Shown here piece by piece: positions 23,093-29,000 of a DNA stretch of 64,000 nt (within the stretch, counting starts at the first letter, position 1; each line of letters begins with the position of its first letter). The stretch is taken from positions 5,828,001 through 5,892,000 of the forward strand of contig NZ_CP030051.1 in NCBI RefSeq assembly GCF_004114975.1, given 5' to 3'. The DNA comes from Bradyrhizobium guangdongense. Its GTDB lineage: Bacteria > Pseudomonadota > Alphaproteobacteria > Rhizobiales > Xanthobacteraceae. Made by a program: the position numbers and the translations under genes. The notes under the pieces are model-generated. The model did not search any database. It was given only the letters and a program-made list of their open reading frames with translations, and was not told the origin of the DNA.

Positions 23093-26000
23093 ATGAGCGA
23101 CCTCGATCCCGGAACAGCATCACGCTCCGGTCGTCGTGTCCCAAAACCAAAACCCAACGGCATGTCAGAGCCGGATTCCCGGGCGGAACTGCTCCTTGCG
23201 CTCCAGGCCATGCGCAGCGGCGATTTCTCCGTGCGCATGAGCGGGGACTATCTCGGCATGGACGGCAAGATTGCCGACACCTTCAACGAAATCATCGCCG
23301 CCAACCAGCGCATGGCGCAGCAGCTCGAGCTGGTCGGTCAGGTGGTGGGACGCGAGGGTAAGACCCGCCAGCGGGTGAAGTTCGGCCTCGCTTCCGGCTC
23401 CTGGGCCGACATGGAAGGCTCCGTCAACACGCTGATCGACGACCTCTTGTGGCCGACGCGCGAGGTGACCCGCGCCGTGGCCGCCGTGGCGCAGGGCGAC
23501 CTGCTCCAGACCGTCAAGCTCGACGTCGAGGGCCGTCCGCTGCGCGGTGAATTCCTGCAATCGGCGACCATCGTCAACACGATGATCAAGCAGCTCGGCG
23601 TGTTCACCTCCGAGGTGACGCGCGTCGCGCGCGAGGTCGGCACCGAAGGCAAGCTCGGTGGCCAGGCCCAGGTGCCCGAGGTGACCGGCGTCTGGAAAGA
23701 CCTGACCGAGAGCGTCAACTCGATGGCGAACAACCTGACCAATCAGGTTCGCAATATCGCCGAGGTGACGATCGCAGTGGCCAACGGCGACTTGTCGAAG
23801 AAGATCACGGTCGACGTCCGCGGCGAGATCCTTCAGCTCAAGGAAGCCATCAACACGATGGTGGACCAGCTCCGCTCCTTCGCCTCCGAAGTGACGCGCG
23901 TGGCGCGTGAGGTCGGCACCGACGGCAAGCTGGGCGGCCAGGCGATCGTGCCCGGCGTCGCCGGGACCTGGAAGGATTTGACCGACTCCGTGAACGCGAT
24001 GTGCGGCAACCTGACCGCTCAGGTCCGCAACATCGCCAACGTCACCACGGCCGTGGCGCGCGGCGACCTCTCGCGCAAGATCACCGTGGACGTGCGCGGC
24101 GAAATCCTGGAACTCAAGGACACCATCAACACCATGGTGGACCAGCTCAACTCCTTCGCCTCCGAAGTGACGCGCGTCGCGCGCGAGGTCGGCACCGAAG
24201 GCAAGCTCGGCGGCCAGGCCCAGGTGCCCGGTGTCGCCGGCACCTGGAAGGATCTCACCGACAACGTCAACTTCATGGCCTCGAACCTGACCGCGCAGGT
24301 CCGCAACATCGCCGACGTCGCCACCGCGATCGCCGGCGGCGACTTGTCCAAGAAGATCACCGTCAACGTCTCGGGCGAAATCCTTCAGCTGAAGGAAACG
24401 CTCAACACCATGGTGGACCAGCTCAACGCCTTTGCCGGCGAAGTCACGCGCGTGGCGCGCGAAGTCGGCACCGAGGGCCGGCTCGGCGGCCAGGCCAATG
24501 TGCTCGGCGTCGCCGGCACTTGGAAGGACCTCACCGAGAGCGTCAACTCGATGGCCTCGAACCTGACGGCTCAGGTCCGCAACATCGCCGAAGTGACGAC
24601 GGCGGTCGCCGGCGGCGACCTCTCCAAGAAGATCACCGTGGACGTCCGTGGCGAGATCCTGGAGCTGAAGGACACCATCAACACCATGGTGGACCAGCTC
24701 AATGCGTTCGCCGGCGAAGTGACGCGCGTCGCGCGCGAGGTCGGCACCGAAGGCAAGCTCGGCGGCCAGGCCGTCGTGCGGGGTGTCGGCGGCACGTGGA
24801 AGGACTTGACCGATTCCGTGAACTCGATGGCCTCGAACCTGACCGGCCAGGTTCGCAACATCGCCGAAGTCGCGACCGCGGTCGCCAAGGGCGATTTGTC
24901 GAAGAAGATCACGGTGAACGTCTCCGGCGAAATCCTTCAGCTGAAGGAAACGCTCAACACCATGGTCGACCAGCTCAATGCGTTCGCGGGCGAAGTCACG
25001 CGCGTCGCGCGCGAGGTCGGCACCGACGGCAAACTCGGTGGTCAGGCCGACGTGCCCGGCGTCGCCGGCACCTGGAAGGACTTGACGGACTCCGTGAACT
25101 CGATGGCGGGCAACCTCACCGCCCAGGTCCGCAACATCGCCGAAGTCGCAACCGCGATCGCCGGCGGCGACCTGTCACGCAAGATCACGGTGGACGTGCG
25201 CGGCGAGATCCTTCAGCTGAAGGACACCCTCAACACGATGGTCGACCAGCTCAACCGCTTCGCGGGCGAGGTCACCCGCGTGGCGCGCGAGGTCGGCACC
25301 GAAGGCCGCCTCGGCGGTCAGGCCAACGTGCCCGGTGTCGCCGGCACCTGGAAGGACCTCACCGACTCCGTCAACTCGATGGCGGGCAACCTCACCGCCC
25401 AGGTCCGCAACATCGCCGAGGTCACGACCGCCGTGGCGCGCGGCGACTTGTCGCGCAAGATCACCGTGGACGTGAAGGGCGAAATCCTCGAGCTGAAGAA
25501 CACCATCAACACCATGGTGGACCAGCTCAACGGCTTTGCCGGCGAAGTCACGCGCGTGGCGCGCGAGGTCGGCACCGAAGGCAAGCTCGGCGGCCAGGCC
25601 GAAGTGCCCGGCGTCGCCGGCACCTGGAAGGATCTCACCGACAACGTCAACTTCATGGCATCGAACCTGACCGCCCAGGTCCGCAACATCGCCGAGGTCG
25701 CGACCGCCATCGCCGGCGGCGACCTCTCCAAGAAGATCACGGTGGACGTCCGCGGCGAGATCCTGCTGCTGAAGGACACCCTCAACACCATGGTGGAGCA
25801 GCTCCGCTCCTTCGCCGCCGAAGTGACGCGCGTGGCGCGCGAGGTCGGCACCGAAGGCCGGCTCGGCGGTCAGGCCGTGGTGCCCGGCGTCGGCGGCACC
25901 TGGAAGGATCTCACCGACAACGTCAACCTGCTGGCCGCGAACCTCACCACACAGGTTCGCAACATCGCCGAGGTCACCACCGCCGTGGCACGCGGCGACT

Positions 26001-29000
26001 TGTCGCGCAAGATCACCGTGGACGTGAAGGGCGAAATCCTCGAGCTCAAGAACACCATCAACACCATGGTGGACCAGCTCAACGCGTTCGCCGGCGAAGT
26101 GACGCGCGTGGCGCGCGAGGTCGGCACCGAGGGCAAGCTGGGCGGCCAGGCCCAGGTGCCCGGCGTCGCCGGCACCTGGAAGGATCTGACCGACACCGTC
26201 AACTTCATGGCGGCGAACCTGACCGAACAGGTGCGCGGCATCGTCAAGGTGGTGACCGCCGTCGCCAACGGCGATCTCAAGCAGAACCTCACCGTGAAGT
26301 CGAAGGGCGAGGTCGCCGCGCTCGCCGACACCATCAACAACATGACGGAGACGCTTGCGACCTTCGCCGACCAGGTGACGTCGGTGGCGCGTGAGGTCGG
26401 CGTCGAAGGCCGGCTCGGCGGCCAGGCCAACGTGCCCGGCGCGGCCGGCACCTGGAAGGACCTCACCGGCAACGTCAACCTGCTCGCGGCCAACCTCACC
26501 TCGCAGGTGCGCGCGATCGCGGAAGTCGCGACCGCCGTGACCAAGGGCGATTTGACGCGATCGATCCAGGTCGACGCCCGCGGCGAGGTGGCCGAGCTGA
26601 AAGACAACATCAACACCATGATCACCAATCTCCGTCTGACGACGGAGCTGAACACCGAGCAGGATTGGCTCAAGACCAACCTCGCCAAGTTCACCAACAT
26701 GCTGCAGGGCCAGCGCGACCTCGCGACCGTGGGCCGACTGCTGCTCACCGAATTGTCGCCGCTGGTGAACGCGCATACCGGCGTGATCTACCAGGTCGAG
26801 AGCGAGGACAATCCGCAGCTCCTGCTGCTCGCCTCCTATGCCGGCGACGGCGTCTATCCCTACCAGCGCGTGCTGCAGTTCGGCGAAGGCCTGATCGGCC
26901 AGTGTGCGGTCGACAGGCGCCCGCGCATGGTCGCCGACATCCCTGCCGATGTCGTGCCGATCAACTCCGCGCTGCTCCGCGTCGCCCCGAAGAACCTCGT
27001 GGTGCTGCCGGTTCTGTTCGAGGGGCAGGTGAAGGCGGTGATCGAGTTGGCTTCGCTCACCTCCTTCACGACGTCGCAGATGACGTTCCTGGAGCAGCTG
27101 ACCGATTCCATCGGCATCGTGCTGAACTCGATCGAAGCGACGATGCAGACCGAAGGCCTGCTCAAGCAGTCGCAGCAGCTCGCCGGCGAGCTCCAGACGC
27201 AACAGCGCGAATTGCAGCAGACCAACGACCAGCTCGAGCAGAAGGCGCAGCAGCTCGCCGAACGCAACGTCGAGGTCGAACGCAAGAACCAGGAAATCGA
27301 GCAGGCCCGCCGTGCGCTCGAGGAAAAGGCGACCGAGCTCGCATTGACCTCGAAGTACAAGTCCGAATTCCTGGCCAATATGAGCCACGAGCTGCGCACG
27401 CCGCTGAACTCGATCCTGATCCTCGGACAGCAGCTCACCGACAATCCCGACGGCAATCTCTCAGCCAAGCAGGTCGAATTCGCCCGCACCATCCACGGCG
27501 CCGGCACCGACCTGCTCAACCTCATCAGCGACATTCTCGATCTCTCCAAGATCGAATCCGGCACGGTGACGGTCGACGCCGAGGAGATCCTCACCGCGAA
27601 CCTGCTCGAGACGGTCGGACGGCCGTTCCGGCATGAAGCCGAGAACCGCAACCTGTCGTTCAAGATCGACGTTGATCCGAATCTCGCCCGCAGCATCGTC
27701 ACCGACTCCAAGCGCTTGCAGCAGGTGCTGAAGAACCTGCTTTCCAACGCCTTCAAGTTCACCGCCGAAGGCGAAGTGCGGTTGAAGGTCGCCGGCGCCC
27801 TCGGCGGCTGGGGCACGGATCATCCGGTGCTGAACTCCGCGCCGGCCGTGATTGCCTTCGAGGTCTCCGATACCGGCATCGGCATTCCCCTGGAGAAGCA
27901 GAAGCTGATCTTCGAGGCGTTCCAGCAGGCGGATGCCGGCACCAGCCGCAAATATGGCGGCACCGGTCTCGGCCTCGCCATCAGCCGCGAGCTTGCGAGC
28001 CTGCTCGGCGGCGAAATCCACCTGCGCAGCTCGCCGGGCAAGGGCTCGACCTTCACGCTCTATCTGCCGCTGAAATATTCCGGCCCGACGCTGGCGCCGC
28101 GCGCCGCGCCGGCGCCGCAACATCAGCCGCCCGCGCTGCAGCCGGCCGCACCGGAACAGCAGCGCGTCGTCGAGCAGCTGCCCGACGATCGGCTCAATCT
28201 CGATCCCGGCGACAGCATCCTTTTGATCGTCGAGGACGATCCGCATTATGCCCGGATCCTGGTCGACCTTGCCCGCGACAAGGGCTTCAAGGTGCTCGTC
28301 GCGGCGCGCGGCGCCGAAGCGCTGGAGCTCGCCAAGCAGTACCAGCCGCGCGCGGTCTCGCTCGACGTGTTCCTGCCCGACATGCTCGGCTGGACGGTGC
28401 TGAGCCAGCTCAAGCACAACCCGCTGACGCGCCACATCCCGGTGCAGATCATCACGCTGGACGAGGACCGTCAGCATGCGCTGGCCCGCGGCGCCTTCTC
28501 CTTCGTCAACAAGCCGACCACGACCGAAGGTGTGGCGGCCGCGCTGACGCAGATCAAGGAATATGCGCGGCCGCGGCGCAAGCGGCTGCTGATCGTCGAG
28601 GACAACGAGGCCGAGCAGATGTCGATCCGGGAGCTGCTGCATCACGACGACATCGAGATCGTGACCACCGACACCGGCGCCGGCGCGCTCTCGACGCTGC
28701 GCGAGGCGCCCTGCGATTGCGTGGTGCTCGATCTCAGGCTACCGGACATGAGCGGCTTCGAGGTGCTAGATCAGATCCGGCGCGACGAGGCGCTGTCGAA
28801 TGTTCCCGTGGTGGTGTTCACCGGTCGCGAGCTGTCGGCCGAAGAAGATGCCGAGCTCCACACCATGGCGCGCAGCATCGTGGTCAAGGGCGTGGAATCG
28901 CCCGAACGCCTGCTCGACGAAACCGCATTGTTCCTGCATCGCGTGATCACGGAGCTGCCGGTCGAGAAGCAGCGCATGCTGGAGAAGCTGAACAGTTCCG

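Follow-up and report, generated by a model that had tools for sequence, protein, structure and literature searches.

In this study, we mainly focus on a gene encoding a long poly-HAMP hybrid histidine kinase in Bradyrhizobium guangdongense, along with the receiver-first kinase gene directly downstream and the evolution of the repeat array that makes up about half of the larger protein. The stretch analysed, hereafter the window, comprises 64,000 nucleotides of contig NZ_CP030051.1 (NCBI RefSeq assembly GCF_004114975.1, positions 5,828,001 to 5,892,000 of the forward strand), belongs to a genome of 8.44 Mb in two contigs, and is numbered from its first letter (Table 1). The kinase frame measures 2105 amino acids (aa) counted from TTG 23066, with ATG 23093 being the likelier start codon. 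Pfam places the unit array first, followed by GAF_2, HisKA, HATPase_c, and three receivers, which bears out the domain order given in a preliminary description made from these letters alone. That description also called the kinase cytosolic, and no likely membrane segment was found in it by a 19-residue Kyte-Doolittle scan (highest mean 1.62, within the GAF domain). The features of the poly-HAMP hybrid kinase class are present, namely an N-terminal tandem HAMP array (11 HAMP stretches), a histidine kinase core with receivers and, judged by simple hydropathy only, the lack of a transmembrane segment. In its best segments the kinase is at most 99% identical to named Bradyrhizobium loci, among which a tree places it.

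Table 1. Features of the kinase locus in the window, with the basis of each assignment.
Feature	Position	Strand	Basis
EcfG-type promoter motif GGAAC-N16-CGTT, 140 bp upstream of ATG 23093	22929..22953	+	Motif scan; consensus PMC3892343
Poly-HAMP hybrid histidine kinase	23066..29383	+	Open frame, Pfam domains, PDB sequence matches 9trk/9trj
Family-specific N-terminal region, residues 36-186	23171..23623	+	Diverged unit included (97-residue spacing; 41 bits)
Eleven 276-bp units, exact register	23639..26674	+	Tandem Repeats Finder, Pfam, unit alignment
GAF domain (GAF_2, PF13185), residues 1217-1353	26714..27124	+	Pfam
HisKA and HATPase_c, residues 1432-1670	27359..28075	+	Pfam
Three receiver domains, about residues 1719-2105	28220..29380	+	Pfam
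Partner kinase: N-terminal receiver, PAS, HWE kinase with HRAKN	29397..30890	+	Pfam HWE_HK, motif scan, receiver HMM

The array consists of eleven units of 92 aa (276 bp) each without a single indel, as the preliminary description had stated: an REVG motif recurs at 23630 + 276k (k = 0-10), the span from 23639 to 26674 is exactly 11 x 276 bp, and Tandem Repeats Finder reports a period of 276, 10.6 copies, and 0% indels. A chance origin of this register is excluded, because the array compared with itself has a mean identity of 0.80 at one period versus 0.34 (maximum 0.41) at in-frame shifts other than multiples of 276. A weaker unit, at a spacing of 97 residues, sits ahead of the array. The inner copies, earlier described as nearly identical, proved less alike than that: units 2-9 share pairwise identities of 0.79-0.91, in DNA and protein alike, with third codon positions at 0.72, and units 10 and 11 are more diverged still (0.60-0.77 DNA identity to the remaining units). 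Among 107 protein matches from the same genome (150 of 194 first-look candidates scored), none except the kinase gene itself matched the array.

Pfam recognizes one HAMP per unit, the best HAMP and HAMP_2 matches overlapping on the same part of it, and the remaining 40 or so residues may represent a second HAMP of divergent sequence. For a stretch of about 2.5 units, an AlphaFold monomer model of low confidence (mean pLDDT 53) gives each unit two long helices joined with two connectors, as expected for two HAMP modules. Helix-turn-helix matches on the array (SpoIIID, HTH_6) were rejected, since they are summed over the repeats and no single stretch passes alone; Pfam additionally reports GatB_Yqey and Laminin_II between 23639 and 26674, again with no stretch passing alone. 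The helix-turn-helix pairs published for the Myxococcus xanthus kinases AskA and AskB overlap HAMPs (PMC7643160) and may represent the same summed-repeat effect.

The preliminary description had further proposed an array that was recently amplified and prone to recombination, with changes in unit number tuning osmotic signalling in this species, and comparison across the genus makes this very improbable. With the N-terminal region as query, the gene was found in 138 of 146 Bradyrhizobium species genomes. In all 46 Bradyrhizobium assemblies with four contigs or fewer, that of the window among them, the open frame measures 2104-2137 aa, a spread of only about one third of a unit and therefore a single unit number, eleven, across the set; direct counts for seven of these (the window and L135-L140) gave 11 units each. 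A hidden Markov model (HMM) of the window units, applied to the window and 80 named loci, found 11 units in 60 of the 81 sequences and 6-16 in the rest, some of these counts being affected by contig ends and the named loci being the best 80 of 587 by similarity, a sample that leans towards the query. The odd-length draft frames examined were resolved as 9 units in L102 (units 8 and 9 missing), 10 in L103 (unit 5 missing), 11 in L106, 11 with a short end in L104 and L105, and a broken frame in L101, and one Bradyrhizobium yuanmingense protein record (P0004) has 14 units. Low unit numbers and the draft-assembly cases may reflect assembly collapse.

The identity of the individual units is conserved along with their number. 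In protein comparisons, every 11-unit locus titled Bradyrhizobium has its best unit matches at the same position for 11 of 11 units, compared with 8-9 in Rhizobium-type loci, 5-8 in Acidobacteria, and 2-4 in the most distant loci. In a tree of unit DNA drawn from 11 Bradyrhizobium genomes, the units form clades by position for 10 of the 11 positions and by genome in no case, and identity at third codon positions is higher for the same unit between species (0.738) than for inner units within one genome (0.685). Recent amplification and concerted evolution in Bradyrhizobium are rejected on the basis of these position clades, the constant number, and the third-position divergence. The exact period, the three deviating Bradyrhizobium records (9, 10, and 14 units), and the varying numbers and more similar units of some other lineages speak for the amplification proposal; against it stand positional orthology throughout the genus, the fit of all 46 near-complete assemblies to eleven units, and synonymous divergence between units, so that recombination-tuned unit number is unsupported for this genome. 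The array repeats in Bradyrhizobium are old, not newly multiplied.

The second gene of the locus begins at ATG 29397, separated by 13 bp from the kinase stop at 29383; its open frame from TTG 29355 comprises 511 aa, and its highest hydropathy mean is 1.78. A same-strand abutting frame was also seen downstream in 9 of 11 loci inspected (all but L043 and L074), and all nine frames are receiver-first, with a kinase module of HWE, HisKA, HisKA_2, or HisKA_3 type or an ATPase match alone (L041); the Rhizobium partner L037 carries a HisKA module. Using a partner-receiver HMM built from these nine loci and the window, which are themselves among the loci counted, we found a receiver-first frame no more than 700 bp downstream in 111 of the 155 loci having at least 600 bp of downstream sequence. 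These loci come from several phyla and include the Myxococcota loci L170-L175 with 14 units. Among the matches listed, partners score 148-253 bits, versus 26-79 for the window kinase's own receivers. The HRxxN motif is present in all 33 Bradyrhizobium partners and in 15 others (Nitrospira included). On sequence grounds, the kinase module of the partner is exchanged between lineages while its receiver is kept. The window partner resembles the Paks, HWE/HisKA_2 kinases with HRxxN that phosphorylate PhyR (PMC5898713), in being an HWE kinase with this motif, and differs from them in starting with a receiver and being encoded beside a poly-HAMP hybrid kinase.

Upstream of the pair lies a sequence identical to the EcfG1 motif of Rhizobium etli, GGAAC-N16-CGTT (PMC3892343). 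Among alphaproteobacterial loci, 27 of 81 have the exact motif with spacers 16-17 (10 of 34 in Bradyrhizobium and 17 of 47 elsewhere), versus 1 of 110 others; for ten loci in this comparison, the upstream DNA was too short or the frame was broken. One locus sorted among the non-alphaproteobacterial ones, L063, is from Bosea, an alphaproteobacterial genus. The sole exact motif in that group, upstream of the kinase at L205, is probably a chance occurrence. This near confinement to alphaproteobacterial loci fits the description of EcfG as exclusive to alphaproteobacteria (PMC3892343). The position of the motif is also specific: it stands 666-678 bp before unit 1, with differing spacers, in 10 of 33 Bradyrhizobium loci and in none of 190 control stretches. 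With a looser score, 8 or 9 of 9 matches were obtained in 23 of 33 Bradyrhizobium loci versus 43 of 381 controls, and 19 of those 23 have the motif 666-688 bp before unit 1. NepR is encoded in the genome of the window. In Bradyrhizobium diazoefficiens, EcfG controls osmotolerance via trehalose (PMC8092242); the word HAMP is absent from the main text of the R. etli EcfG paper (PMC3892343). Osmotic sensing by the kinase is favoured only indirectly, via the promoter motif.

Taken together, we consider it reasonably probable that the two genes encode a stress phosphorelay pair that is transcribed by, and probably acts on, the EcfG general stress response. The kinase gene would be the first of a two-gene phosphorelay unit, and dimers of its product would stack their HAMP modules into a long rod which, together with the N-terminal region and the GAF domain, would convert an intracellular stress cue, with an osmotic-type cue being the best guess, into changed kinase or phosphatase activity. 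Via the receivers of the hybrid kinase, phosphate would then reach the receiver at the N-terminus of the partner. The Bradyrhizobium partner, as an HWE kinase with HRxxN, may act on PhyR or a related regulator and hence on the EcfG response, which in turn would raise transcription of the operon in a feedback loop; in other lineages, the exchanged kinase module would wire the same input to local outputs.

Several points weigh against this interpretation. The exact promoter motif is found in only 10 of 34 Bradyrhizobium loci, a second control set contains it in 9 of 381 stretches (34 of 381 with one mismatch), and its window-wide count of 3 is not significant against a chance mean of 1.77. A partner is lacking at 44 of 155 loci, among them the Noviherbaspirillum loci and every one of the 29 Myxococcota loci L141-L169, which have 6-13 units. 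HRxxN is absent from 63 of 111 partners and common to many HWE kinases. The structure model is poor, and the loci counted are related, so the counts are not independent. Part of this evidence would suit an explanation in which the motif and the HRxxN partner are coincidental and the pair regulates a process outside the general stress response: the motif is short and inexact at most Bradyrhizobium loci, HRxxN is widespread, and the Rhizobium partner has a HisKA module instead. The difference in motif frequency between alphaproteobacterial and other loci, along with the specific position of the motif, argues against coincidence, which we regard as unlikely.

Beyond the genus, the gene was detected with the N-terminal query (E <= 1e-15 or 1e-20) in 9 of 192 alphaproteobacterial genomes and in 26 of 397 genomes of a sample spanning the phylum of the window, 11 of these belonging to Bradyrhizobium. 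It is present in 80 of 144 genomes from the phylum of the Myxococcaceae locus L043, in 14 of 149 from that of the Acidobacteria locus L049, in 19 of 247 from the family of G420, and in 27 of 298 from the order of G489. A protein search returned 5536 relatives at E <= 1e-10, and every named organism among the best 120 matches listed per search is bacterial. These listings are biased samples of unit number, because scores appear to sum over repeats and favour long arrays (for example, a 151-residue query that scores 315 bits against itself reached 767 bits). Overall, the family has a wide but patchy distribution and is nearly universal in Bradyrhizobium.

Fungal group III kinases (Nik1/Os-1, TcsC), to which the preliminary description likened this protein, place the same kind of HAMP array before HisKA and a receiver; they have about five to six HAMPs, no GAF domain, one receiver, and output through the HOG pathway, and are likened here by description only. 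Aspergillus fumigatus TcsC reportedly has six HAMPs. The likeness holds in so far as the window encodes an exact-period poly-HAMP hybrid kinase with more units than TcsC, and fails for the tuning of unit number by recombination. Bacterial poly-HAMP kinases have been compared with NIK1 before (PMC7643160), and the family is already known from Myxococcus AskA/AskB (PMC7643160) and the PDB entries 9trj and 9trk. M. xanthus AskA/AskB/AskC and Sorangium Amb07 are described as long hybrid kinases of the same poly-HAMP type that lack transmembrane regions; askC is the gene immediately behind askB, and the AskC receiver interacts with Rec3 of AskA (PMC7643160). A pair of the AskB-AskC type, with a receiver-first kinase directly downstream, occurs in the window and at 110 other loci of the 155. 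From the published helix-turn-helix-like pair counts of 11 and 6 (PMC7643160), we infer that the 14-unit type (L170-L175) corresponds to AskB and the 6-unit type to AskA. The Ask systems differ from the window in unit number, in a partner without HRxxN (L170), and in having no EcfG motif at the Myxococcota loci; the roles described for Ask and Amb07, fruiting-body development and ambruticin sensing (PMC7643160), also differ. The two PDB entries, both histidine kinases fused to Gcn4, are short constructs compared by sequence: 9trj matches the N-terminal region plus the array start (E 2e-63), and the 9trk match (E 6e-124) takes in that region and roughly one and a half units. The poly-HAMP receptor Aer2 (3LNR; PMC3570549) is a soluble protein with similarly stacked, alternating HAMP conformers; it differs in being a chemoreceptor, with HAMPs arranged as three plus two and a PAS domain that binds heme.

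Across lineages, unit numbers range from 4 to 17, and changes nearly always involve whole units, with two-unit steps being the commonest. We mapped unit number by parsimony onto FastTree trees built from regions outside the array. For 401 complete arrays, thinned to 310, this gave 65 changes, of which about 33 were of two units, 14 of one, and 6.5 of three; for a hand-made list of contigs of at least 1 Mb (59 tips), it gave 20 changes (12, 2, and 4, respectively). Under a linear cost, one-unit steps made up about 26 of 75 changes, and 4 of 22 on the large contigs. A smaller earlier data set had 10 of 14 changes of two units and none of one, and the pattern weakened with more data. Since two-unit steps still form about one third of changes when tip labels are shuffled, part of the excess stems from which unit numbers are common, and the two-unit rule is a tendency only. 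It may arise from a recombination bias due to the similarity of units two apart: identity at lag 2 exceeds that at lag 1 in 115 of 138 arrays. Strict alternation of A and B units was dropped given a weak single-array order test (15 of 138 arrays reach p <= 0.05, with a median of 0.26) and is retained as a tendency. The idea of only odd unit numbers (178 odd versus 23 even tips in the first sample) was abandoned once wider sampling gave 14-unit and 8-unit clades. Unit spacing is nearly always exactly 92 residues, departures being L050 (a gap of N), L079 (91), L131 (two of 93), the broken L101, P0003 (73), and P0067 (94).

Homogenization of arrays looks real outside Bradyrhizobium and not within it. 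In a unit tree with seven alphaproteobacterial genomes, grouping by position was limited to positions 1, 2, 10, and 11, and six Myxococcota plus four other 11-unit arrays grouped by position only at 10 and 11; a clade of the whole array of one genome was absent in every set of unit trees. In Ramlibacter albus (L082), inner units are 0.95 alike among themselves versus 0.84 to the same-position units of the window, and in the Myxococcota arrays L157 and L161 the inner DNA identity is 0.95 and 0.93 versus 0.84 in the window. Because units are more alike and numbers vary in some myxobacteria and Ramlibacter, recombination appears to act on such arrays elsewhere. Paralogues of 6 and 14 units occur together in four Myxococcota genomes (G787, G798, G811, G826), and those of 11 and 14 units in G797 and G836.

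These patterns bear on a further explanation, according to which the array serves mainly as a scaffold or ruler for spacing, oligomerization, or DNA contact, not a graded processor, while sensing resides in the GAF domain or the N-terminal region. The steadiness of unit number within clades and its change by whole units agree with this, as do reports that FrzCD di-HAMPs control oligomerization and DNA binding (PMC12077210) and that AskB binds a promoter in vitro (PMC7643160). However, the genus-wide conservation of single unit identities exceeds what a bare spacer needs, and Aer2 HAMP conformers give opposite outputs in a two-state relay (PMC3570549); we consider a mainly scaffolding role possible but rather doubtful. 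Equally tentative is a broader proposal for the family, in which a widespread input cassette has its output kinase swapped by lineage, feeding and fed by the general stress response in alphaproteobacteria, and unit number acts as a quantized ruler that changes mostly in two-unit blocks because the phase or geometry of the rod must be kept. In searches of the open-licence PMC literature, mostly at the level of listings, we found no paper on a conserved partner with exchanged kinase modules, on a link to EcfG, or on the evolution of unit number.

Other features were noted in and around the locus. A DUF4142 gene lies 5' of the kinase (22002-22514, + strand), and a short tandem repeat of 12-15 bp is found at 32992-33049. 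An antisense open frame lies opposite the kinase gene (25175-27388, - strand), and similar frames occur at L072 (9965-16291, - strand) and L043 (924-7448, - strand), the frame in Nitrospira having 2108 aa and spanning nearly the whole kinase gene; such long antisense frames are probably an effect of codon composition.

If the pair is indeed a stress phosphorelay tied to EcfG, this nodule-forming genus would offer a tractable system: almost all of its species have the eleven-unit kinase, a likely acceptor of its phosphate is encoded alongside, and mutants and phenotypes are known for the well-established stress pathway. Myxococcota provide a natural length series on large contigs (L147, L158-L160, L170-L175), and these 6-14-unit arrays, together with the lineage-swapped output kinase, would be material for probing the role of each unit.

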